A stretch of DNA of 64,000 nucleotides, taken from contig JAFDXR010000010.1 of the NCBI GenBank assembly GCA_018267825.1, positions 62,001-126,000 on the forward strand, written 5' to 3'. This document shows, piece by piece, positions 31,194-46,023 of the stretch; the first letter of the stretch is position 1; every line of letters begins with the position of its first letter. The position numbers and the translations under genes are program-made. The stretch is from Bacteroidota bacterium. GTDB taxonomy: Bacteria > Bacteroidota > Bacteroidia > B-17B0 > Aurantibacillaceae. Below the pieces are notes generated by a model. That model worked only from the letters and a program-made list of their open reading frames with translations. It was not told where the DNA came from and made no database searches.

Positions 31194-31248
31194 GAAACCT
31201 AAACTCCTTTAAATTCGTAAACGTTAAAATATGTTACAGAAATGTGGT

Positions 31249-34200
31249 ATGGTTAAAAGAATTTTACTTCCCCTTCTTTTATTTTTTTCCTGTTTTTTAT
31301 CAGCCCAGAATCTCTACTGGATAGGTGGTGCAGGTTACTGGAATGATGTAAATCACTGGTCTTATACAAGTGGCGGGGTTCCGGCAGGTATTGCACCAAA
31401 TGCATCAACGCATGTTATTTTCGATAATAATTCCTCTTCAACCGACGCCATTGTCCACATCCTGCAGAATACTCAGGCAAACACGATCCAGGCTTCTCTG
31501 ACCAATGGCGCAAAAGTACGCCTGGTAAGCTCTTCCAATGTTAATCTTACGGTTTATGAAGGTGTTGACGTAAATGAATTCTTCTTTTTTCAGTTGAATG
31601 GTAAGCTTTTGCTGTCGCCGCAACATGCCGTAAAATATAATTTCTCTCACAATAATTTCAGCAATGATGTTGTACTGAATGCCAATAATACTGTGGAACT
31701 CGGGAGTTTTAATTCTACCGGGAATTTTACGCTTATGGGGCATTTCACACTTAAAAACTCCATCATTCTCGGAAACACGCTGCACGTCGATAATGCAAAC
31801 CTCTATCTGGATAATGTGACCATGCTGGCTAAAAACGGCTGGACATCCCAATCGGTCGTATTGGCAACAAGTCCGGGCTCCAAAAACCGTCTGATCCTGG
31901 ATAAGTCGCAACTCAGTCAGCAGCAGAACAATTATTTTGCCGGTGTCGGCGGACTTCAGTTTGCGGCCCTGGCCCCTGCATCCTGTACAGCTTCTGTAAC
32001 AGCCAGCACAGCACCTACCTGCTTTCAGCTTTGTAACGGTACTGCCACGATCAGCTTATCTGGCTGTACAAACCCGCCATACGACCTGCAATGGCTCAAT
32101 GCCGAAGTAGCCACTCCATTATGTCAGAATTTACCGCCCGTGGAAATCGGGTATGCCAGCACAACCTATACCGTGAATGGCATGTGTCCCTGCAGTACAC
32201 CATATCAGCTCCTGGTAACCAATGCGCTGGGGGAGCAAACGGCTGTTTCTGTGCTGATGCCAAACCCACCGGCTACCCTGTTATCTTTCTCGTCGACACA
32301 ACCTACCTGTAATGGCTTGTGTAACGGCCAAATCCGTGTAAATGTGGTTTCAGCCCTTACGCCAATTGTGCTGACCTATAGCCCTTCGGCTACAACGCAT
32401 AGCAGTATAGTAACAAAAGATACGCTGAAACTGGCCTGTGCCGGTGTTTATACGATTACTGCCACCAATGCCAATGGTTGCGTAAATACATTTACAACCA
32501 ATCTCGCGCAACCGGCAGTGCTACTGCCGAACGGGGCCCAGACCAACATTATATGCGGTGGTACCTGTACCGGTGCAGCCACAGTATCACCTTCCGGCGG
32601 TACAGCAGCCTACAGCACGGTATGGAGTAATGCCACTGTAGGGCCAACAACCGGAAGCCTGTGTGCAGGGGTTATTACAGCAACGGTGACCGACAGTAAA
32701 AACTGTAAGGCAACCTATTCAACCACCATCACACAACCACCGCCAATTACCCTGACAGTAACGAAAAGTAATTTATCGTGTTCCTCCTCCTGTAACGGCA
32801 CCGCAACCATAACAGCTACCGGTGGTGTAGCACCGTTTACCTACAACTGGAGTCCGAGTGTTTCGAGCAGTTCTGTAGCAACGAGTCTCTGTGTGGGTTC
32901 TTATACGGTTAATGTAACCGATAACCTGGGTTGTACTAAAACAGTGACTTTGTCAATTACATCGCCACCGCCTCTTACTACTACACCCACAGGAACCAAT
33001 GTGCTTTGTCATGGTTTATGTACCGGAGCAATCAATTCAGTGCCCGGAGGCGGTACGCCTCCTTATAGCTATGCCTGGACACCATCTGTATCGAGTGGCT
33101 CTGTAGCCACAAATCTTTGTGCAGGAGTGTATACCTATACGATAACAGATGCACTTGCCTGTACTATTGCCCAGAGCTATACAATAACAGAGCCCCCACT
33201 GATTTCCCTGGCTATATCGCATACAGATGTAACCTGTAACGGACTTTGTAACGGCACGGCTTCTGTTACGGCTTCAGGTGGTGTTTCACCATTTACGTAT
33301 ACATGGAGTCCTGGGAACCCTACAGGGCAGGGAACCAGCCAGATTACAAACCTTTGCCCGGCAACCTATACTGTTAATACCAAAGATGCCAATGGTTGCG
33401 CCAATACCGGAACCGTTACCATTACCCAACCGTCTACCATCACGCCGAATGTTTCGAGTGTGATCCCGACCTGTAACGGTCAGTGCAACGGATCGATCAG
33501 CGCTGCACCAAGTGGCGGAACACCGGGTTATACATATACCCTTCAGCCAACAGCTGGAGCGCCTGTTACAGGAACACCTCCTTTTACCGGACTTTGTGCC
33601 GGAAACTATACCCTCACCATCAAAGATGCCAATGGTTGTGTACTTACACGCACCATGAGCCTTAATCAGCCTAATCCGATTACACTGGCATTATCGGCCA
33701 CACCGATCAGCTGTGCCAACCAGTGCAACTCCACCATATCATCGGTAGTAGCAGGTGGTACACCGGCCTACACCTATACCTGGAGCACCGGGTCAAACGC
33801 CACAACACTGGTTAATCAATGTACGGGTGTTTATTCTGCCACTGTAACCGACATCGGAGGCTGTACAGCCACAGCTTCTGTGAATGTGACCTCCCCAACA
33901 GCCATGACGGTGGCTATTACACCAACCAATGTGAATTGCAACGGCCAGTGTAATGGTGCGGCTACAGCCAGTGTTACCGGCGGAACGCCGAACTACACCT
34001 ACTCGTGGACCCCAACCGGAACAACAGCTCCAACGGCATCTGCACTCTGTGCAGGAAATTATACAGTAACAGTTACCGATTTTAAAGGCTGTATTACCAC
34101 GCAAACAACATCTATTATTGCACCGCCGGCTATAACACTTACGCCTGCGGGTGGCACAGTGACCTGTGCCGGTGCCTGTAACGGAACTGTCGGCGTAACG

Positions 34201-37200
34201 GCCTCCGGCGGAACTCCGAACTATTCCTATAGCTGGAACTCTGTTCCTGCACAAACAACGTCTGTAACCGCAGCCAATCTTTGTCCGGGTAACTATGCTG
34301 TTACTGTAACCGATGCCCACGGTTGTATTTCTTCCATAGGTGCTACGATCACCCAGCCCACAGTACTTACAGCAACTATCAGTAATATACAGCCAAGTTG
34401 TAATGTGTGTATCGGTGCGGCAACAGCCAATCCGAGTGGCGGCACACCACCATACACCTATAATTGGGTAAACTCAACAGGTACGAGTGTAAGCACCAAC
34501 CAAACGGCTACCAATCTTTGTGTAGGAAATTATACTGTGACTATAACAGACAGCCATGGCTGTACAACGACCAAGGTTGTCAATATTCCGCAGATTGTAT
34601 CCATCGTAGTAACTACAAATGGTACGGTATTACAATGTAACGGCGGATGTTCGGGTGTTGCAACGGCCAATGTGAGTGGTGGTGTTTCGCCGTATGCCTA
34701 TACATGGAACACAACAGTGCCGACACAAACAACACAATCGGCTACAAATTTATGTGCGGGTGTATATACAGTTACAGTTACCGACAACCTGGGCTGTTCA
34801 AATACCGGTACGGTAAGTTTTACCAACCCTCCGGCTATAACGCTTACGGTTAATAAAACGGATGTAAAATGTAACGGAGTTTGTAACGGAAGTATCACAG
34901 CTTCAGCTTCCGGTGGAACTGGTCCCCTGACTTACCAATGGCTTCCGACAGGGCAAACAACACCTACAGTTACAGGCTTGTGTGCCGGTACATATACTTT
35001 GAATGTTTCGGATGGCAATGGCTGTACAAAAACTCAGACCGTTGCTATTACAGAGCCAAGTACACTGACCGCCACATTCAACTCGGTGAACCCAACCACC
35101 TGTATTTCCAGCGACGGATCAATTTCAGTAACCCCGGCAGGCGGTACTGCACCTTACACATTTACCTGGTCGCCGGGAGGCAGTACTTCCAACCCATTAA
35201 CTAACCTGCCCGACGGAACGTATTCAGTTACCATTAAGGATGCCAATCTTTGTACACAAACGATTATTACAACATTAAGCGACCCGGCCGGACCAACACT
35301 GACCGTAACAACAACTTCGGTAGCCTGTTTCGGGCAATGTACGGGCGCGTCAACAGTAAGCGCGTCAGGAAGTTCACCATTTACATATTCATGGACTGCA
35401 GGTGCGGCGCCAAGCAATTCCGTTAACACGGGTTTCTGTGCGGGTAATTATGCCGTGCAGGTAACCGACGTTAACAGTTGTGTAACATCGCAGACCATCA
35501 ATGTGGCACAACCGCTGAAAGTTACTCTCAATGGAGTTATTACCAATGCAACCTGTAATGGTGCCTGTACCGGCTCGGTAAACCTGACACCGGCAGGGGG
35601 AACGGGAACCTACAACTATACATGGACACCTTCCGGTGGAAACGTTCAGGACCCGACTGCCTTATGTGCCAATAACTATACGGTGAATGTCACCGATGGC
35701 AATGGATGCCCGGCTACAGCCACCTTTGCGGTCACGCAGCCTTCTTCGCTCACACTGACTTATCATAAAAAAGATGTATTATGTAACGGTAATTGCAACG
35801 GAGCGGTGAGAGCTATTGCATCCGGTGGATCAAGTCCTTACACTTATAACTGGGCTCCATTGGCCCCATTTGCAGGATCGACGCTGGATACTATTGTAAA
35901 TCTTTGTCCGGGTGTGTATACAGTTACGGCCACTGATGCCCTGGGCTGTAGCATAACCGGCACCGTAAGCATAGGTCAACCGCCATTACTTACATCTACC
36001 ATTACAGCGCATAGTGTTAAATGTAACGGACAATGTACCGGAAGTTCCACACTTACCGCTTCGGGAGGTACGCTGCCATATACGTACCTGTATAATTCGC
36101 CGCCACCAAATACAACGGCTGTTGTAAATAATTTATGTGCGGGTAATTACCAGGGTACTGTGACAGATGCCAATGGTTGTACAAGTACAAATACCTTTGT
36201 GATTATTCAGCCGCCGCTGCTTACAGTTACAACAGCACCTACCAACCCGAAATGTAATGCGGTTTGTAACGGTAGCATTGCAGCTACGGTGAATGGTGGA
36301 AGTCCGAATTACACCTACCAGTGGATTCCTGCAGGCGGAACCGTTCAGAATCCAACCGGCTTATGTGCAGGCATGTATACAGTAACTGTAACCGACGATA
36401 GTTTATGTACAGCACAAAGTATTGTGACGCTTACAGATCCTCCGGCACTTTTAGCCAATGCGTCTTTTACAAACCCGACCTGTTCCGGTGGATGCGATGG
36501 TAAAGCCACATCAAACCCGGTAGGCGGAACGCTTCCTTATACATACAGCTGGCAGGCCCCTCCGCAAAGCAGCCAGACCATCACAAACCTCTGCGCAGGT
36601 GGTTATACCGTGATGGTGTCCGATGCTAACGGATGTTCCGATACGCAGACAATAACCCTGGTATCGCCGACCGGCATTACGCTGAATCCTGCTGTGTCGC
36701 CTGCAGCCTGCGGTGTGAATAACGGATCCATTACCGTAACACCGGTTACTGGAAACACACCATTTACCTATAACTGGCTTCCGCCCATTGTTTCAACGAG
36801 TTCAGTTGTTACAAACCTGGGAGCAGGTGTTTATACGGTTGTTGTAACCGATGCAGCATCCTGTACAGCTACAATCTCTATACCGCTCAGTAACTCCAAT
36901 GGTCCAACCGGGGCCACACTTACTTCTACAAACGTGATCTGTAACAGCCAGTGCAACGGTCAGGCCTCTATTTCCAATCCGGTGGGCGGCACGCCATCGT
37001 ATACACTGGCCTGGGTAAATCCTGTATCGACCAATACGCTCATTACCAATTTATGCCCGGGTTCATATACGGCGCAGATCACCGATGCCAATAACTGTTT
37101 ATTGTTTATGCCTGTAACCATTACGGAACCACAGGTGATCGATGATAATGAACTCCTGAGCAGTTCAACCTGCTTCGGCAACTGCAATGGTAGCATTGCA

Positions 37201-39705
37201 CTCAGTCCTACAGGTGGTAACGGGGGCTATGTTTATTCATGGAGTGATGGTACAACAGGCTCTTCGATCAGTAATCTGTGTCCGGGATCCTACTCGGTAA
37301 CTATTACCGATGCCCTCAACTGTACGTTCACAGCTAATTATAATTTACCAAGCCTCATCACTATCACCAGCAATACATTTGCCACCAACAATGCCTGCTT
37401 TGGCAATTGTAGCGGAAGCTTGCTGGCTACAAACGTGGCCGGCGGATTACCTCCATACACATATCAATGGACTGATCCGCTCGGACAGACAACCGTGCAG
37501 GCCAATAACCTGTGTAATGGGACTTATTCAGTTACTATCACAGACGCCAATGGTTGCTTCAATACCACACCGGGCGATATTACTTCGCCTTCACAGATTG
37601 CGCCAAACCCAAGCGTAACGAATCCATCCTGCGGGCTGTGTAACGGTTCGGCAACACTGACTCCGAGCGGTGGAAATGGCGGAGCTTATACGGTGGTTTG
37701 GAGTAACACACAAACCGGTAATACTGTTTCGGGGCTCTGTGCCGGTGTGTATGCTGTTCAGCTTACCGATAATATAGGTTGTGTAACAGATACAGATGTG
37801 GTAATCAATAGCTCCAGCACGGTTACGGCCAGTATTACCAAAGCAGACGAATCATGTGCTGCAACCTGTGATGGTTCTGTTACAGTAACAGCATCGGGCG
37901 GTACAGCACCTTATACATACCATTGGGTACATAATAATTCAGCCGCCTCTTCACTCACAGGTATGTGCGCAGGTACTTACTTCTGTAATATTGCCGATTC
38001 TGTTGGTTGTTCATTCACGGCCAGTGTTACGATTGGTGCAGCATCTGATCTTACAGTAACGCCGCTGGTAACGCAAACCTCCTGTAACTCAAGCACCGGT
38101 TCTATTGCGGTAACGGTGAGCGGTGGAACAGGTCCGTATACTTACAGTTGGTTACCGGCCGGAAATACAGCCACACTCTCCGGTTTACCGGCAGGTACAT
38201 ATACACTCACGGTAAGCGATGCAAATGCCTGCTCCAAAACCCAGGTGTTTGCCATGAACTCTATAAACGGGCCGTTACCTGCACTCACAACCACCAACGT
38301 AAATTGTTCGGCAGCATGTAATGGCTCCGCTACAGTGACTATCACCGGCGGTACAAGTCCTTACACCATACAGTGGTCTACAGGTGCTTCGACACCTACG
38401 GTAGGTAGCTTATGCGCAGGTACATACTCCTTGCTGGTAACGGATAATACCGGTTGCAGTGGTGCACAAACATTCTCTATTTCCAATTCAAACCCGATTG
38501 TATTCAGTACGCCGGATGTAAACAACCCATTGTGTCACAATGATTGTAATGGCTCCATCAATGCCATTCCGATTGGTGGTACCTTACCGTTTACATACGC
38601 CTGGAATCCTGGTCCCGGATCTACACCGGCTCTCGCCAACCTTTGCGCCAACAATTATTCTGTATCTGTAACAGATGCGCTTGGTTGTACGGCAACACAA
38701 ACGTTTGTGCTGAACAATCCGCCTTCTCTCGGACTTGTAGCGGCTGTATCTAATCCGTCGTGTAGTGCAACACCAAACGGTACGATTGATATTACGGTGA
38801 GCGGTGGTACACCGTCATATACGTATACATGGTCGGGTGCGACTTCATCCAATAACCAGGACCTGAATAATATATTTGTAGGGACCTATTCATTGCATGT
38901 GTCCGATGCATCGGGTTGCTCGAAAGACACCAGTATTGTGCTGACATCTACACTCATTGTGAATGCCGTTGCAGGCAACGATACATCGTTCTGCCAGGGC
39001 GGTCCGTTTACGCTTAATGGCAATGCTTCTGTTGGCGGTACAACCTATCAGTGGCTTGAACTCCCTGCCAATACGGTTGTAGCGAATACAACAACTGTTG
39101 TTGTAAACCCTGCCACAGGAACGTCAACCTTTGTGCTCGTGGCCAATGGCGGAACCTGTACCGACAGCGATACAATTATGGTAACATCGAATGTACCGCC
39201 GGTTGTAGATGCCGGACCGTTTGTAAGTATCCCTATCATGACATCCACGCAAATTGGCGGAAACCCGACCTGCCCGACGGCCGTGAGTTATACATGGACA
39301 CCGGCATTTGGCCTGGATAACGGAAGTATTGCCAATCCAACAGCATCGAATACCATTACCACCCAATATACGGTAACAGTAACTGATGCCAATGGATGTA
39401 CAGGCATGGATACCATTACGGTCGATATCTTCCCGCAGATTAAAATACCAAATGGCTTCTCTCCGAATTCTGATGGAAAGAATGATACGTGGATTATTGA
39501 TAATATTCAGCAATTCCCGGATTGTACAGTTGAGGTATATAACCGCTGGGGAGAAAGGCTATTCTATTCTACAGGCTACGGTGTGCCATGGGATGGCAGA
39601 TTTAAAGGCAAGGATCTTCCTGTAGGTACATATTATTATGTCATCAACCTGAATCACCCGTCTTATCCGGATGCATACACAGGTCCGTTAACCATATTCA
39701 GATAA
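31249..39705 (+). CDS. Giant SprB-repeat surface adhesin with CHU_C gliding-type C-terminus
   Basis: A protein of about 2818 residues, starting at 31249 (MVKRILLPLLLFFSC, a signal peptide); an ATG at 31231 adds six residues. A beta-helix-like N-terminal region (about 20-240) begins NLYWIGGAGYWND. About 30 tandem SprB-type repeats of roughly 75-80 residues follow (about 245-2570), each CNGxCNG-like, then GGTxPYTYxW, NLCAGxYTVTVTD and GC. An Ig-like module precedes the C-terminal CHU_C domain (FSPNSDGKNDTW to the end). By analogy to SprB of Flavobacterium it is exported by T9SS and moves on or covers the cell surface, but gliding itself is not shown. The PorP/SprF gene lies 6 bp downstream. Confidence 0.93.
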   Translation: MVKRILLPLLLFFSCFLSAQNLYWIGGAGYWNDVNHWSYTSGGVPAGIAPNASTHVIFDNNSSSTDAIVHILQNTQANTIQASLTNGAKVRLVSSSNVNLTVYEGVDVNEFFFFQLNGKLLLSPQHAVKYNFSHNNFSNDVVLNANNTVELGSFNSTGNFTLMGHFTLKNSIILGNTLHVDNANLYLDNVTMLAKNGWTSQSVVLATSPGSKNRLILDKSQLSQQQNNYFAGVGGLQFAALAPASCTASVTASTAPTCFQLCNGTATISLSGCTNPPYDLQWLNAEVATPLCQNLPPVEIGYASTTYTVNGMCPCSTPYQLLVTNALGEQTAVSVLMPNPPATLLSFSSTQPTCNGLCNGQIRVNVVSALTPIVLTYSPSATTHSSIVTKDTLKLACAGVYTITATNANGCVNTFTTNLAQPAVLLPNGAQTNIICGGTCTGAATVSPSGGTAAYSTVWSNATVGPTTGSLCAGVITATVTDSKNCKATYSTTITQPPPITLTVTKSNLSCSSSCNGTATITATGGVAPFTYNWSPSVSSSSVATSLCVGSYTVNVTDNLGCTKTVTLSITSPPPLTTTPTGTNVLCHGLCTGAINSVPGGGTPPYSYAWTPSVSSGSVATNLCAGVYTYTITDALACTIAQSYTITEPPLISLAISHTDVTCNGLCNGTASVTASGGVSPFTYTWSPGNPTGQGTSQITNLCPATYTVNTKDANGCANTGTVTITQPSTITPNVSSVIPTCNGQCNGSISAAPSGGTPGYTYTLQPTAGAPVTGTPPFTGLCAGNYTLTIKDANGCVLTRTMSLNQPNPITLALSATPISCANQCNSTISSVVAGGTPAYTYTWSTGSNATTLVNQCTGVYSATVTDIGGCTATASVNVTSPTAMTVAITPTNVNCNGQCNGAATASVTGGTPNYTYSWTPTGTTAPTASALCAGNYTVTVTDFKGCITTQTTSIIAPPAITLTPAGGTVTCAGACNGTVGVTASGGTPNYSYSWNSVPAQTTSVTAANLCPGNYAVTVTDAHGCISSIGATITQPTVLTATISNIQPSCNVCIGAATANPSGGTPPYTYNWVNSTGTSVSTNQTATNLCVGNYTVTITDSHGCTTTKVVNIPQIVSIVVTTNGTVLQCNGGCSGVATANVSGGVSPYAYTWNTTVPTQTTQSATNLCAGVYTVTVTDNLGCSNTGTVSFTNPPAITLTVNKTDVKCNGVCNGSITASASGGTGPLTYQWLPTGQTTPTVTGLCAGTYTLNVSDGNGCTKTQTVAITEPSTLTATFNSVNPTTCISSDGSISVTPAGGTAPYTFTWSPGGSTSNPLTNLPDGTYSVTIKDANLCTQTIITTLSDPAGPTLTVTTTSVACFGQCTGASTVSASGSSPFTYSWTAGAAPSNSVNTGFCAGNYAVQVTDVNSCVTSQTINVAQPLKVTLNGVITNATCNGACTGSVNLTPAGGTGTYNYTWTPSGGNVQDPTALCANNYTVNVTDGNGCPATATFAVTQPSSLTLTYHKKDVLCNGNCNGAVRAIASGGSSPYTYNWAPLAPFAGSTLDTIVNLCPGVYTVTATDALGCSITGTVSIGQPPLLTSTITAHSVKCNGQCTGSSTLTASGGTLPYTYLYNSPPPNTTAVVNNLCAGNYQGTVTDANGCTSTNTFVIIQPPLLTVTTAPTNPKCNAVCNGSIAATVNGGSPNYTYQWIPAGGTVQNPTGLCAGMYTVTVTDDSLCTAQSIVTLTDPPALLANASFTNPTCSGGCDGKATSNPVGGTLPYTYSWQAPPQSSQTITNLCAGGYTVMVSDANGCSDTQTITLVSPTGITLNPAVSPAACGVNNGSITVTPVTGNTPFTYNWLPPIVSTSSVVTNLGAGVYTVVVTDAASCTATISIPLSNSNGPTGATLTSTNVICNSQCNGQASISNPVGGTPSYTLAWVNPVSTNTLITNLCPGSYTAQITDANNCLLFMPVTITEPQVIDDNELLSSSTCFGNCNGSIALSPTGGNGGYVYSWSDGTTGSSISNLCPGSYSVTITDALNCTFTANYNLPSLITITSNTFATNNACFGNCSGSLLATNVAGGLPPYTYQWTDPLGQTTVQANNLCNGTYSVTITDANGCFNTTPGDITSPSQIAPNPSVTNPSCGLCNGSATLTPSGGNGGAYTVVWSNTQTGNTVSGLCAGVYAVQLTDNIGCVTDTDVVINSSSTVTASITKADESCAATCDGSVTVTASGGTAPYTYHWVHNNSAASSLTGMCAGTYFCNIADSVGCSFTASVTIGAASDLTVTPLVTQTSCNSSTGSIAVTVSGGTGPYTYSWLPAGNTATLSGLPAGTYTLTVSDANACSKTQVFAMNSINGPLPALTTTNVNCSAACNGSATVTITGGTSPYTIQWSTGASTPTVGSLCAGTYSLLVTDNTGCSGAQTFSISNSNPIVFSTPDVNNPLCHNDCNGSINAIPIGGTLPFTYAWNPGPGSTPALANLCANNYSVSVTDALGCTATQTFVLNNPPSLGLVAAVSNPSCSATPNGTIDITVSGGTPSYTYTWSGATSSNNQDLNNIFVGTYSLHVSDASGCSKDTSIVLTSTLIVNAVAGNDTSFCQGGPFTLNGNASVGGTTYQWLELPANTVVANTTTVVVNPATGTSTFVLVANGGTCTDSDTIMVTSNVPPVVDAGPFVSIPIMTSTQIGGNPTCPTAVSYTWTPAFGLDNGSIANPTASNTITTQYTVTVTDANGCTGMDTITVDIFPQIKIPNGFSPNSDGKNDTWIIDNIQQFPDCTVEVYNRWGERLFYSTGYGVPWDGRFKGKDLPVGTYYYVINLNHPSYPDAYTGPLTIFR
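31981..38950 (+). repeat. About 30 tandem SprB-type coding repeats
   Basis: Units of about 225-240 bp each encode one repeat. Most start with a CNGxCNG-like pair of cysteines and contain a conserved GG(T/V)xPYTYxW core and an LCAGxYTVTVTD segment. Units with a lost second cysteine (for example TTCISSDGS, AACGVNNGS, TSCNSSTGS, PSCSATPNG) recur towards the end. The DNA copies are diverged, so this is an ancient protein repeat rather than a recent tandem DNA repeat. Confidence 0.9.
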
Positions 39706-39711
39706 AAGATC

Positions 39712-40632
39712 ATGAGAAGACTATTATATCTTATTTGTATGATGATTGGCCTGGGTGCCTTACGTGCCCAGCAATTGCCGCAGTATACACAATATATGCT
39801 CAACGACCTGGCTATTAACCCGGCTGTTGCTGGTAAAAACGAATATGTGGATGCACGCTCCAATAACCGCTATCAGTGGCAGGGGCTAACCGATGCTCCT
39901 AGAACCTATATGCTGACTGTACATGGCCCGGTGAAAAAGAAGAACATGGGTATTGGTACGCACATCTATACGGATATTGTGGGACCAACACGTCGTATCG
40001 GGATTAATCTGTCGTATGCGTATCATATCCGCCTGAAAGGGAAAACAAAACTGGGCCTGGGTATTTCAGCGGGTATACAGCAATGGGGTATCGATGGGCA
40101 TAAACTGACACTGCATGACCCGGGCGATGAAAACCTCCTGATTAAATACCAGACTGTGGTGGTTCCGGAGCTGGGAGCGGGCTTACAGGTATACAATGAT
40201 AAATTCTATATCGGTTTTTCAGCACCGCAATTATACCAGAGTCCGCTGAACCTCTATAAGGATGGCGACAAAAAAAGTACACTGGCTACACATTACATTA
40301 TCAATGGTGCTTATAAATTTGATGTCGGCGAGGATTTTCAGATCGAGCCTTCTTTCCTGACAAAATACGCGAATCCGGCCCCTGTAGAAATCGACCTGGG
40401 CGTTCGTGCTATATATAAGCAACAGGTATGGCTGGGAGCTGGTTATCGCTATCACGATGCCTTTACAGCCCTGGTGGGCTTTATGTATAAGAACTACCTG
40501 ATGATTGGTTATTCATACGATTTTACCACATCCAACCTGCGTAAATATTCTACCGGAACCAACGAAATCATGTTGGGAATCCGCTTTTCGCGCCAGCAGG
40601 CCAAGCACTGGGGCGACGATAATACCCAGTAA
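39712..40632 (+). CDS. PorP/SprF-family T9SS outer-membrane protein
   Basis: A 306-residue protein with a signal peptide ending in LRAQ. The N-terminal mature motif QQLPQYTQYMLNDLAINPA is the PorP/SprF hallmark, followed by a beta-barrel pattern with alternating aromatic residues and an ending on IRFSRQQAK. SprF of Flavobacterium is needed to place SprB on the surface. Location 6 bp after the SprB-repeat gene makes this the matching partner. Two further paralogues are at 53426 and 58116. Confidence 0.9.
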   Translation: MRRLLYLICMMIGLGALRAQQLPQYTQYMLNDLAINPAVAGKNEYVDARSNNRYQWQGLTDAPRTYMLTVHGPVKKKNMGIGTHIYTDIVGPTRRIGINLSYAYHIRLKGKTKLGLGISAGIQQWGIDGHKLTLHDPGDENLLIKYQTVVVPELGAGLQVYNDKFYIGFSAPQLYQSPLNLYKDGDKKSTLATHYIINGAYKFDVGEDFQIEPSFLTKYANPAPVEIDLGVRAIYKQQVWLGAGYRYHDAFTALVGFMYKNYLMIGYSYDFTTSNLRKYSTGTNEIMLGIRFSRQQAKHWGDDNTQ

Positions 40633-41606: not shown

Positions 41607-43145
41607 TTATTGATCGTTTGTATGGACGATCAGTTTGTCGTCTTCATAGTGCCCCGACTCAATAAATTCAGGATTGAGATCGAGTGTGGGCAATGGTTTT
41701 TTCTTTTTCGTTTTTTTTGACTTGCCTGTGGTTTTGAAATCAATAACAAAGTCTTTCTCAAAAAGAGAGTAGGCTTTTTTATCGCAATGCCTGAAGTACA
41801 CCTCAAACAGGTTTTTAAGCGGCAGATCGTTGACGATGTTTGAGGTTTTTTCGAACTGAGCCAGGGTATCCCCGAAGTAGAAACTGATTTTATCGGAAGA
41901 TGTAAAGCTCAGCGTGTCGGGGCGCCCTTTAAAGAAATAATAGGCTTTGGCGCTATTGTAATCAAACGTTGTTATTATAAGATCGTGTCCGGTATTGTTT
42001 CTGACAATAACGCGTTTCAGACTTGTGTCCTGATAGTCGTAACGGGATGAGTTACGCAGTATATAGCGGAAAGGGGTGTCGCCACTCAGGCTGCTATCTA
42101 TGGCTAAAGGGGTATTGAGTTCGGGTAACGACGTATGCAATTCCTGATTCTGCAGGCGATATTTTCTATAATCCTCGAAATCCTTGTATTCACTTTGCGC
42201 TTTGGGTTGTGTGAATGTAATCCGGGGAGCATTTGAAAAGTCATAAGTGCTGGAGTTTCTGCTGCATGTTGCCATCCGGGCGATAAATATAATGGCCATC
42301 AGAATAAGATAGAAAATCCTGCTTGTTGAAAGTCCGTCGCCTGAACTGCCTGAGCCTGCGTCGTAGTTATTCTGAAAGATTTTGTGGTTGGATTTTACCA
42401 GGCTCTTTAACGTTTCATCACATTCTATTTTACAGAGTATGTTGCTGATATAAAACAGCAGGGCTCTGTCGTGGTTCTTGATGCGCTGGTAAGCAACCAT
42501 CGTGTTGATGATGGTAGAGACCAGTGAGTTGACGGAATCCATAAATTCAGGCGGCAACTTGCCCAGGAAATCAGCAAAGGAAACTCTTTTAAGAAATGCA
42601 AATTCAGAAGTAATGTTCTGGAATTGATTCCGGCTAACCGACTGGATGTGTTCATCCAGATTGCTGAGATTTTTACTGATCTGATCATAAAACTCCATGC
42701 GGTCACTTTCGGTAAGGAGATCTGCACATGAAACAGATTCGCCGGCTATATCAAAATTCCTGGTGTGAAACGATTTTTTAAGATTGTATGATAATCTTTC
42801 AAGAAGCAGAGGGCTCAACTCGTGCTTCAGCGCTTCGGGGACATCCAGTTTTTTTAACTCGGCAGCAGAGACCCTTGACAGATCATGTTCCAGGAAATCG
42901 AGCAGGTTTTTATGCGAAAAAATGAATTGATGAAGCGGCATTTGCGGATTTCCCATCAGCACATCGATGGTTTTAATGATCTCATCTTTGGTATAGGGTT
43001 TACCATGGATATCGATTGTCACTGAATTGCCCAGCTCGAATTCGGCCAGCCATTTTTTTCGCAAACGAAGGAGCGAAGCGGAATCCGAAAGGTTAATTTC
43101 TTCTTCGCCGAGCTCTGATAAAATATGAAGAGGGGATTTATACAA
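41607..43145 (-). CDS. Uncharacterised one-TM protein next to the Hsp70 gene
   Basis: A 512-residue protein without recognised domains. The first 260 residues are helical and charged; a short Gly/Ser-rich linker (AGSGSSGDG) precedes a single membrane helix at about 277-296 (SRIFYLILMAIIFIARMA). The rest (about 300-512) is predominantly strands and ends in a Lys-rich tail (TGKSKKTKKKKPLPTL). The topology suggests a cytosolic N-terminal half and an extracytoplasmic C-terminal half, or the reverse. It starts 44 bp after the Hsp70 stop, so it is the third gene of the chaperone-like group. It may be the client or membrane partner of that Hsp70. The function is unknown. Confidence 0.65.
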   Translation of the reverse strand: MYKSPLHILSELGEEEINLSDSASLLRLRKKWLAEFELGNSVTIDIHGKPYTKDEIIKTIDVLMGNPQMPLHQFIFSHKNLLDFLEHDLSRVSAAELKKLDVPEALKHELSPLLLERLSYNLKKSFHTRNFDIAGESVSCADLLTESDRMEFYDQISKNLSNLDEHIQSVSRNQFQNITSEFAFLKRVSFADFLGKLPPEFMDSVNSLVSTIINTMVAYQRIKNHDRALLFYISNILCKIECDETLKSLVKSNHKIFQNNYDAGSGSSGDGLSTSRIFYLILMAIIFIARMATCSRNSSTYDFSNAPRITFTQPKAQSEYKDFEDYRKYRLQNQELHTSLPELNTPLAIDSSLSGDTPFRYILRNSSRYDYQDTSLKRVIVRNNTGHDLIITTFDYNSAKAYYFFKGRPDTLSFTSSDKISFYFGDTLAQFEKTSNIVNDLPLKNLFEVYFRHCDKKAYSLFEKDFVIDFKTTGKSKKTKKKKPLPTLDLNPEFIESGHYEDDKLIVHTNDQ

Positions 43146-43189
43146 TCGAAAATGACTTTAATGTTGTGATTACAAATTCCATGTTTTGA

Positions 43190-45700
43190 TCATCCTAAGC
43201 CGGTACCCGCAATTTTTTCCATTTGTACCGAATCTTTTGTCAGGCTCAGTAAATGCGTAAAATGACTGCGTAGTTCTTCGTAGTTTTTTCTTTCGAGTGC
43301 CTTTTCAGCGGCTGAAATAGTAGCCCTTGCAGCTTTCAGATCCTTGTATTCGCTTTCATCCAGGTTGGCATAATGCATGTAAAAAACAACAAGCAGAGAG
43401 GGTGTGTATAATACCATTTTATTGATCAGTCTCATTTGCGCCTTTTGAAGACTGTCGAGTTGAAAAAAGCTGTTGCTGGCAAAAGCTCCCGGTTCACGCT
43501 GTTTCAGTGCTTCATGCTCTTCTTTGTAGGCCTGGGGCATATCGGCGTATGTTTCGCACCAGTATTGAATAGTAGAGCGCCATCCGAAATAGTTTGCCTT
43601 AGCCTGTACCAGTCTTGGATTGTTTTCAGAGCCATAAATCTGTTGCGCCAGTTTGCGTTTTTGTTCTTCGATCTGGTATTTCAGATCAGACAGATCATCT
43701 TCTTTGAGAGCCATTGCATCTTCATAGAGTTTCTGGAGTTTTTCGGCCAGGACTTGTATATCCGCGGCTTTTTCAAAATCCTCGTTATTGGCTGCTTTTT
43801 CAATTTCAGCGTGGAGCATGTTCCGGATTTCTTTTATTTCCTCCCGAAGTTTCTGTATACTAATGTATTTTTCAGTCGGACTGAATACATTGCTGAATTG
43901 CTGATTGAATAGCAGGAGGGTTACCTGCACACTGACATCGCGACTTTCAGTGATTTCAAGTCGTATTTCCACATCGCTGCCTTTGATGAGGTCGCCCTGG
44001 AGCTGTGTGGCTTTGATCTCAATAATGCCGATGGCCTGATTTGTATTCGGGTGTGCTTTGCTATTGCCTTCGAGCACATGAATAATGAGTTTGTCGTCGG
44101 ATCCTTTTTTGATGGTCCGGCTTACTTCGCGGTAAATCGTTTTTGTGAGCGGGAGGATGCTATTGCGTTCAAAAACAACCTGGCATTTGGTTGTGTTGTT
44201 TTCAACGTCATCTACCTCAATGGATATATCCTCTGGTAATGGCTGTCCGAATAAGCTGAAAAGACCATGTGTAATTCCAATGGTATCTGCCTGGCAGGGG
44301 ACTTCGTTCATGTGCGCATCAAAAACTTTCAGGCGGAATTCATTTAATCCGTTGGAACGTAATGTCACAAATTCTCCCAGTTTTGGTTTCAATGGTTTTA
44401 TTCCGGTGTCAAATCCACCGTCGGAGCGTGTGAGGCGGAACTGAAGCCCTTCTCTGTAATTTTGAACGAGGCCTGTGATATATTCTTCGGTGTCTTTGGT
44501 TGTTTTATTATAGGAGAGTTCAAAACGAAGTATTTCTGTATCCGTCTGACCCACGGTGTTTACCGAAGGTTCTTTTTTTTCTTCTTCCAGTTTGCTGGAT
44601 TTACTGCCGGCATAGTATGCTGCGCCAACAGCCACGGCAGTTGTAGGATCTGCGGAGCAATTTACTTTAATGCCTGTACTGCTATGCACAACCTCCCGCA
44701 CATAGGGAATATATGTACTGCCACCGATCATAATAACTTCACTGATATCAGCAGGAGATACGGCATTTCTTTCAAGTACTTTCCGGATCATGTCGAGTGT
44801 ACTTTCAATACGGGGTTTTATACAGGCGTTCAGTTCCTCGCGTGTAAATTCCAGAAAAAAATCTTCTTCCCCGTTTCCGGTGATATCGTATGAAAATTCG
44901 ATTTCAGTTTGCGTAACCTGGCTGAGTTCTTTTTTTGCCTCTTCTGCTTTCAACAGAAGAATGTAGTATAGCTTTTCGTACCTGCCCTGGCGTTTATTAA
45001 GTTCGGTCGACAGTTCCGGAATGGATGTCTGTTTTATGAGTTTTGGCACAAGCACGTCCATCACAATGCTGTGATCAAAATCCAGTCCTCCCAGGTAATT
45101 ATCACCCACGTGGTCGATCACGCGCATTTCAGTTTCGGTAATTCCTATGAGTGCTACGTCGAATGTGCCTCCGCCAAGATCATACACCAGCCACTTGCCC
45201 TTACTTAGCTCGTTGTCGGCTATTTTGTTAAAAAAAGCCAGTGATGCAGCGATTGGCTCCTGCAATAAAACCACCTCGCGGAAACCCGCGTCATAACCTG
45301 CTTTCTTGGTGGCATTACTTTGTACGGTGTCGAAACTTGCAGGTATGGTAATCACGGCACAGTCGGGTTTTTCCTGGGTGTGCACAAATCCTTTCAGTTC
45401 AGCTAATACCATAGAGGATAGCTGCATGGGTGAAAAAAATTCATTTTTGGTGGGACAGAAATAGTTGTCAGAAGTTCCCATCTTGCGTTTGAATCCCGCA
45501 AACACATTAAGCGGGTCTTTCAAAAGCCACTCACGGGCTTTGTCTCCTATAAGTGTTCTTTCACCTCTGAATGCGATACAACTGGGAAGTGTTTCCTTGA
45601 AACCGACCGGGTTCTTAAAAACTTCAACAGTACCCGAATCAAACTTCGCGATCAGAGAATTGGTTGTCCCGAGGTCAATGCCATAATTGATTGTCTTCAT
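43190..45700 (-). CDS. Long Hsp70-family protein with an extended C-terminal half
   Basis: An 836-residue Hsp70-type ATPase. The N-terminal nucleotide-binding domain (about 1-375) has all core motifs: GIDLGTTNS, WLVYDLGGGTFDVALIG and MIGGSTYIPYVREVV. The following strand-rich region resembles a substrate-binding domain only loosely. The C-terminal 230 residues (about 600-836) are a long charged helical and coiled stretch. Standard DnaK is about 640 residues, so this is a divergent, elongated paralogue rather than dnaK itself. It lies 33 bp downstream of a GrpE-like gene and 45 bp upstream of the TM protein gene. A dedicated rather than general chaperone role is inferred from that arrangement. 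Confidence 0.85.
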   Translation of the reverse strand: MKTINYGIDLGTTNSLIAKFDSGTVEVFKNPVGFKETLPSCIAFRGERTLIGDKAREWLLKDPLNVFAGFKRKMGTSDNYFCPTKNEFFSPMQLSSMVLAELKGFVHTQEKPDCAVITIPASFDTVQSNATKKAGYDAGFREVVLLQEPIAASLAFFNKIADNELSKGKWLVYDLGGGTFDVALIGITETEMRVIDHVGDNYLGGLDFDHSIVMDVLVPKLIKQTSIPELSTELNKRQGRYEKLYYILLLKAEEAKKELSQVTQTEIEFSYDITGNGEEDFFLEFTREELNACIKPRIESTLDMIRKVLERNAVSPADISEVIMIGGSTYIPYVREVVHSSTGIKVNCSADPTTAVAVGAAYYAGSKSSKLEEEKKEPSVNTVGQTDTEILRFELSYNKTTKDTEEYITGLVQNYREGLQFRLTRSDGGFDTGIKPLKPKLGEFVTLRSNGLNEFRLKVFDAHMNEVPCQADTIGITHGLFSLFGQPLPEDISIEVDDVENNTTKCQVVFERNSILPLTKTIYREVSRTIKKGSDDKLIIHVLEGNSKAHPNTNQAIGIIEIKATQLQGDLIKGSDVEIRLEITESRDVSVQVTLLLFNQQFSNVFSPTEKYISIQKLREEIKEIRNMLHAEIEKAANNEDFEKAADIQVLAEKLQKLYEDAMALKEDDLSDLKYQIEEQKRKLAQQIYGSENNPRLVQAKANYFGWRSTIQYWCETYADMPQAYKEEHEALKQREPGAFASNSFFQLDSLQKAQMRLINKMVLYTPSLLVVFYMHYANLDESEYKDLKAARATISAAEKALERKNYEELRSHFTHLLSLTKDSVQMEKIAGTGLG

Positions 45701-45732
45701 GCAAGGTTTTTTGAATGGATACCAGATTGAGT

Positions 45733-46023
45733 TTATTTCCCTTCTACAATAACAATTCCTCTCTGGGCCAGAACACCATTGTGAACAATCACAGGCTTGA
45801 TGACCTGGGTAATAATCATATTGGCGGTTTCGGCCCCGGCAATATTTGCCTCTACATCGGTACGGGTTTCATTATATTTCTCGTTTATGGGAGAGTAGTA
45901 TGTAATCCCCATATCTTCAAAGGATTGTTTGCACCTTGCAAAATAACGTGCATATTCTTCACTTCTGTTCAGCTTTGTTTCGAGCGCAGAGAGTTGGTTG
46001 ATCACTTCATAAAGTGGTTTCAT
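45733..46023 (-). CDS. Mini GrpE-like nucleotide exchange factor candidate
   Basis: A 96-residue protein. The first 45 residues form a charged helix (SALETKLNRSEEYARYFARC) and residues about 50-96 resemble the small GrpE beta domain: FEDMGITYYSPINEKYN, then helices, and a final ITQVIKPVIVHNG followed by QRGIVIVEGK, like the GrpE ending of (K)PGY...RPAxVxV. It is about half the length of a normal GrpE and lacks the long dimerisation helix. Its place directly before the Hsp70 gene strengthens the call. The match is by eye, so an unrelated small protein is possible. Confidence 0.55.
   Translation of the reverse strand: MKPLYEVINQLSALETKLNRSEEYARYFARCKQSFEDMGITYYSPINEKYNETRTDVEANIAGAETANMIITQVIKPVIVHNGVLAQRGIVIVEGK

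Follow-up and report, generated by a model that had tools for sequence, protein, structure and literature searches.

The window, the stretch of 64,000 nucleotides from a Bacteroidota bacterium that was analysed in full, contains a small GrpE-like gene, a long Hsp70 gene and a gene for a membrane protein in a row. The locus raises the question of whether these genes form a chaperone system of their own and, if so, what such a system would be used for. As described below, they encode a version of the Hsp70 machine that is real, recurrent and mobile, in which GrpE is strikingly small and the third component is a membrane partner, and the most probable use of this machine is weighed against several alternatives.

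Results

Organization of the operon

All three open reading frames were found on the minus strand where an earlier note on this DNA had placed them (Table 1). The operon spans positions 46023 to 41607 of the window and encodes, in order, the 96-aa GrpE-like protein, the 836-aa Hsp70 and the 512-aa protein with a single transmembrane (TM) segment. The spacers of 32 bp (between the 96-aa frame and the Hsp70) and 44 bp (between the Hsp70 and the 512-aa frame) fit a single operon, and the nearest upstream gene on the same strand stops 112 bp before the 96-aa frame. Promoter and terminator scans gave chance-level results, and Rfam had no match within the window. An artefact of frame calling was ruled out because all three frames are conserved in distant relatives, in an equivalent neighbourhood, at 13–78% identity.

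Table 1 Features of the operon, given as positions in the window.
Feature	Position	Strand	Description
Mini-GrpE, 96 aa	45733..46023	-	Two short helices and a beta domain, without the long N-terminal helix
Hsp70, 836 aa	43190..45700	-	Nucleotide-binding domain (NBD) ~4-370, inserted domain ~385-485, substrate-binding domain (SBD) from ~487, enlarged helical lid to 836, C-terminal GTGLG
Extra domain in the Hsp70 frame	44251..44548	-	Residues ~385-483, between NBD and SBD, placed by alignments; the DnaK SBD alignment starts at ~487
Membrane partner, 512 aa, TTG start	41607..43145	-	Helical N-domain of ~270 aa, one TM segment, variable C-terminal beta domain
Predicted TM segment of the membrane partner	42279..42335	-	Residues 271-289; hydropathy mean 1.92

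The upstream neighbour is a gene for a surface protein of the LIC11966 family (NF047958; 46136-47194, same strand, directly adjacent), which has no counterpart beside the operon at loci L037 or L039. The downstream neighbour, a LigB-type protein, is convergent with the operon. Further along, positions 31231-40632 hold a 2824-aa repeat-rich protein of secreted type followed by PorP/SprF (PF11751), a pair of T9SS/gliding type that is also convergent with the operon. The 4.8-Mb host genome carries a separate canonical DnaK, GrpE and three J-domain proteins outside the operon.

The 96-aa protein is a cut-down relative of GrpE

The small protein had been described as resembling the GrpE beta domain, and both its predicted fold and its homology agree. 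The AF2 model (pLDDT 90.3, pTM 0.79), which like the other AF2 models rests on a shallow alignment of 5-6 rows, contains two helices (2-18 and 22-37) and six strands. When this model was compared with the PDB by Foldseek, the best 12 matches were all GrpE chains from several organisms, with E values of 4.2e-3 to 0.36, a best probability of 1.00 and TM scores by query length of at most 0.67. The long paired N-terminal helix of GrpE is missing.

Used alone, the sequence gave chance-level matches in Pfam, NCBIfam and PDB sequence searches, and neither these family collections nor PADLOC hold a name for it. A profile of the close family matched GrpE weakly, in unchanged register (Prob 5.6-7.4). 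The widened family (n=23) aligned with the GrpE profile over 108 columns (Prob 94.0, E 1.4e-7, score 51.7), and its distant subset (n=9) gave Prob 96.2, E 2.5e-9 and a score of 63.0; the best scores of the corresponding column-shuffle controls were 17.9 and 16.3. The 96-aa protein is thus a relative of GrpE cut down to the short helices and the beta domain, GrpE-like and not a canonical GrpE, and it would be expected to promote nucleotide exchange on its partner Hsp70. It shows how far GrpE can shrink and yet be kept with its own Hsp70. A scan of viral contigs found no mini-GrpE, and the wider type was present at two distant viral-contig loci.

Extra domain and enlarged lid of the Hsp70

The match to PF00012 (237.7 bits, residues 7-370) is confined to the NBD of the 836-aa protein, and the residues for ATP binding and hydrolysis, D9, K71, E148, D174, T179 and D181, are invariant across ten orthologues (alignment A3). 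The SBD and lid aligned with the DnaK SBD profile over 206 columns (Prob 96.6), starting at residue ~487. The protein has the length first reported, and its "extended coiled C-terminus" is a DnaK-type SBD followed by a lid enlarged to ~225 residues. The protein is not DnaK proper, scoring 229 bits on the DnaK equivalog TIGR02350 against a cut-off of 822.55.

Between the NBD and SBD lies an extra domain of ~100 residues, probably beta-rich, that is conserved in near and far relatives and that carries the motif DGG-(F/Y)-D-(T/S)-G in window-type members. It makes this protein a natural example of an Hsp70 whose allosteric hinge holds an additional domain. The family alignment shows no counterpart of the hydrophobic DVLLLDV linker through which the NBD and SBD are coupled in DnaK, so allostery may differ in this Hsp70. 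The C-terminal tail of window-type Hsp70s (43190-43210) is usually short and G-rich (GTGLG and variants) and recalls a partner-docking motif.

The third protein is a membrane protein and a candidate J-like adaptor

The third protein was expected to have one TM segment, and hydropathy did predict exactly one, the position of which is similar in nearly all window-type homologues. In close relatives the N-domain is 38-56% identical and the C-terminal part 24-42%. The gene is duplicated at four loci (L037, L039, L050 and L052), and its product has no name in Pfam, NCBIfam or PADLOC. The partner encoded on a Pseudomonas plasmid (L211:10376-12496) has N-terminal TPRs and no TM segment, indicating that anchoring is not universal; its C-terminal region resembles that of a Vibrio J-like protein.

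The relationship of this protein to J proteins was approached through intermediates. Pfam DnaJ matched neither the third protein nor the distant J-like proteins, an HPD motif is absent from all members of the third-protein family and from the NPF-type proteins (described below), and direct comparison of the third protein with the J domain was not significant (Prob 0.1-0.2). Stepwise comparisons scored above their shuffled controls: the third protein matched one NPF-family subgroup (P 8e-5, score 29.4 vs a best shuffle of 12.2), NPF subgroups matched one another (P 3.6e-6, above every shuffle), and NPF-family N-termini matched the DnaJ J domain (P ~1e-4, score 27.7 vs a best shuffle of 14.8). 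The AF2 model of the N-terminal region is of low confidence (pLDDT ~52-76) and has a J-compatible order of helices, and a fold search placed no J domain among the 50 matches listed. On balance, these data lean slightly towards a J-like adaptor whose first ~90 residues are possibly J-like. Accordingly, the earlier note's statement that no DnaJ is present stands in that there is no canonical DnaJ beside the operon, and is qualified by the moderate evidence that the third gene may itself contain a degenerate J-like domain. The operon also provides a chaperone machine with a partner that has no HPD.

A likeness of the C-terminal beta domain to pVHL was rejected as too weak (E ~0.02, TM 0.10/0.34). 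In one relative, a DnaJ/CbpA-like gene and a CbpM-like gene (L047:9321-10514) are divergent from the mini-GrpE gene.

The three genes co-occur and are mobile

Mini-GrpE was found in 7 of 395 genomes of the phylum, and a full-length relative of the window Hsp70 in precisely the same seven. The third family occurred in these seven too, with an orphan copy and a partial C-terminal match besides; the models were built from those seven genomes, and the informative part of this result is the absence from the other genomes of the phylum. Within the order, distribution is patchy, the window-type Hsp70 being present in 5 of 87 genomes.

The proposal that the three genes co-occur in relatives was confirmed at the level of individual loci. 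The mini gene lies immediately before the Hsp70 gene in 14/14 loci examined, and the third gene is adjacent in 12/13 evaluable loci, counting locus L052 and a locus split over two contigs (L129/L130). Locus L038 has no third gene, and L128 stops at a contig edge. When L048, L050, L051, the Pseudomonas plasmid copy and L219 were held out of training, an HMM of the third family still recovered all five, with E values no higher than 1.5e-6. A stricter HMM, from which L047, L049 and L130 were withheld, recovered those three. The third gene of L052 was matched only by an HMM that had it in the training set, and this assignment is provisional.

One copy of the operon lies on the conjugative plasmid pSDM007 of Pseudomonas hygromyciniae. 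A tblastn search with the third gene returned no plasmid match, and its HMM does find the Pseudomonas plasmid copy. The orphan third gene (L219:7318-8652) has Vsr and PDC-M27B-like genes nearby, and its genome has neither mini-GrpE nor a window-type Hsp70.

Distant relatives and neighbouring defence genes

Distant Hsp70s (~30% identical) were found on viral contigs as well as on chromosomes and plasmids. Ahead of them lies either a small GrpE-like protein or a longer one with a GrpE-like end. Most of these loci are near a protein starting NPF-x-(L/I)LG (here "NPFxLLG" J-like). The loci add AAA or kinase-AAA proteins and, in some cases, a TerB-like protein. The longer proteins directly upstream of the Hsp70 (~300-345 aa; L217:8081-8980, L053:4832-5803 and L055:4813-5850) have a hydrophobic or coiled N-terminus and are apparently membrane-tethered GrpE variants. 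A wider unnamed family of Hsp70 loci (L053-L059, L131, L132 and L212-L218) combines the small GrpE-like protein or domain and the NPFxLLG J-like protein with AAA, kinase-AAA or TerB-like partners, and several of its members are on plasmids.

Several distant loci have defence genes as neighbours. By PADLOC, Gabija and a type IIG RM gene lie beside the Hsp70 locus on a Sinorhizobium plasmid, GajA/GajB-like genes were identified on an Aminobacter plasmid and ZorA on a Polaromonas plasmid. BREX genes were identified by annotation near the locus in Haliscomenobacter, and in Shewanella and Aeromonas the locus lies behind Tn7-like genes. Since 2/4 control stretches from the same plasmids also carried defence-type genes, the association with defence is suggestive and not proven. 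None of the three operon proteins was matched by PADLOC 2.0. The window-type loci are surrounded by housekeeping genes, not by defence islands, and have no obvious toxic effector.

Discussion

Proposed mechanism and alternatives

The operon may be read as a dedicated, horizontally spreading Hsp70 machine in which a core of mini-GrpE and Hsp70 works with a J-like membrane adaptor as a stress or conflict switch, a reading to which we give an even chance. Its invariant core would consist of the large Hsp70 and a minimal GrpE as exchange factor. The adaptor, through its probably J-like N-region, would recruit the Hsp70 and present clients to it. It would sit in the membrane with its conserved N-domain in the cytoplasm and draw the Hsp70 there; charge does not settle this putative N-in topology. 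The SBD may bind, in an ATP-dependent manner, either a particular client or part of the adaptor, after which mini-GrpE would reset the Hsp70 through release of ADP. The variable C-terminal part of the adaptor, which is duplicated or absent in some genomes, could be a sensor or a client-specific module. Such a machine would most likely serve as a switch in stress or conflict (anti-phage) and not in bulk folding. If a role in conflict is true, it would add a chaperone-driven switch to bacterial immunity.

The best-surviving alternative, which falls somewhat short of even odds, is a narrower and stronger form of this conflict role, an outright anti-phage system. Here infection would be sensed by the Hsp70 or its membrane adaptor, which would then set off an effector acting at the membrane or as a kinase. 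It would account for the kinase-AAA, AAA or TerB-like genes added by distant relatives, for the position of such relatives beside Gabija, Zorya, BREX and type IIG RM genes or, as cargo, alongside Tn7-like genes, and for the variable C-termini and duplication of the adaptor. Against it stand the window-type loci, which have neither an obvious toxic effector nor defence neighbours, the control stretches, which were not clean, and the lack of a PADLOC model for the core proteins. The suggestion of a defence role in the earlier note draws indirect support from relatives on plasmids, subject to this imperfect control. A broader possibility, advanced tentatively, is that the mobile Hsp70/mini-GrpE/J-like core represents a new class of immune or stress switch common to Bacteroidota and Pseudomonadota. 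In such a class the chaperone cycle would restrain a membrane-anchored sensor-effector, and kinase-AAA, TerB, TPR or PH-like accessories would be swapped between lineages.

Alternatively, the operon could encode a client-specific housekeeping chaperone of the envelope, tethered to the inner membrane, that keeps secreted or T9SS/gliding substrates competent and has no immune role. The partner is indeed a membrane protein, the window operon faces the 2824-aa repeat protein and PorP/SprF, and in one genus the operon follows gldKLMN-like genes (L048 and L050; named by eye from sequence). These T9SS/gliding neighbours in two genera are the extent of the specific support for the surface protein handling once suggested for this locus. 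The patchy presence of the operon in phylum and order contrasts with T9SS, a trait of whole lineages. The module also occurs on the plasmid of Pseudomonas, a lineage that is not known to have T9SS, and other loci have unrelated neighbours. An envelope chaperone is considered unlikely. A spare DnaK system, a duplicated general stress chaperone that has merely drifted, would also pair an Hsp70 with an adjacent exchange factor, and was rejected as highly improbable given the 229 vs 822 bits on the DnaK equivalog, the extra domain, long lid and minimal GrpE conserved in all members and the strict co-occurrence of the private GrpE with its Hsp70.

Comparison with known systems

The operon had been put forward as undescribed, and our literature search likewise found no description of it. 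Like the DnaK-DnaJ-GrpE machine, it combines an Hsp70 with intact active-site residues and an SBD with an exchange factor of GrpE fold. Unlike that machine, its GrpE lacks the long N-terminal helix, its Hsp70 has an extra domain and a doubled lid, and it has a membrane-anchored third partner in place of an HPD J protein. It is also patchy in distribution and partly plasmid-borne.

The nearest described systems both differ in components. GAP1-N2 GTPase-centric conflict systems, known mainly from actinobacteria and firmicutes, combine a GTPase with HSP70, GrpE and DnaJ-fused FNIII proteins (Kaur et al. 2020, PMC7159879). A genomic module of HSP70, GrpE and a DnaJ- or TPR-type protein, to which the window operon with its candidate J-like protein is similar, was proposed there as a conflict switch (PMC7159879). 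In CoCoNuTs, the Hsp70-like protein CnuD is linked to McrBC, carries HEAT repeats and has a degenerate ATPase, and GrpE and DnaJ are not mentioned in the main text of that paper (PMC11090510). CnuD resembles the window Hsp70 in its NBD and SBD, there in a restriction/defence context (PMC11090510), whereas the window Hsp70 keeps intact ATPase motifs and a strictly linked GrpE. Unlike both systems, the operon in the window, which is from Bacteroidota, has no GTPase (GAP1-N2 partner or McrB) in the two flanking genes.

A further likeness is to plasmid loci for an "Hsp70 family protein" in Shewanella, Aeromonas, Polaromonas, Sinorhizobium, Vibrio and Haliscomenobacter, which have no system name of their own. 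The window operon differs from these loci, the Hsp70s of which are ~30% identical, in having neither the AAA or kinase-AAA protein of most of them nor the TerB of one. It resembles them in the Hsp70 of ~830-845 aa, intact in most, and in the small GrpE-like protein or domain encoded directly before it, with an NPFxLLG J-like protein nearby in most of the plasmid loci.
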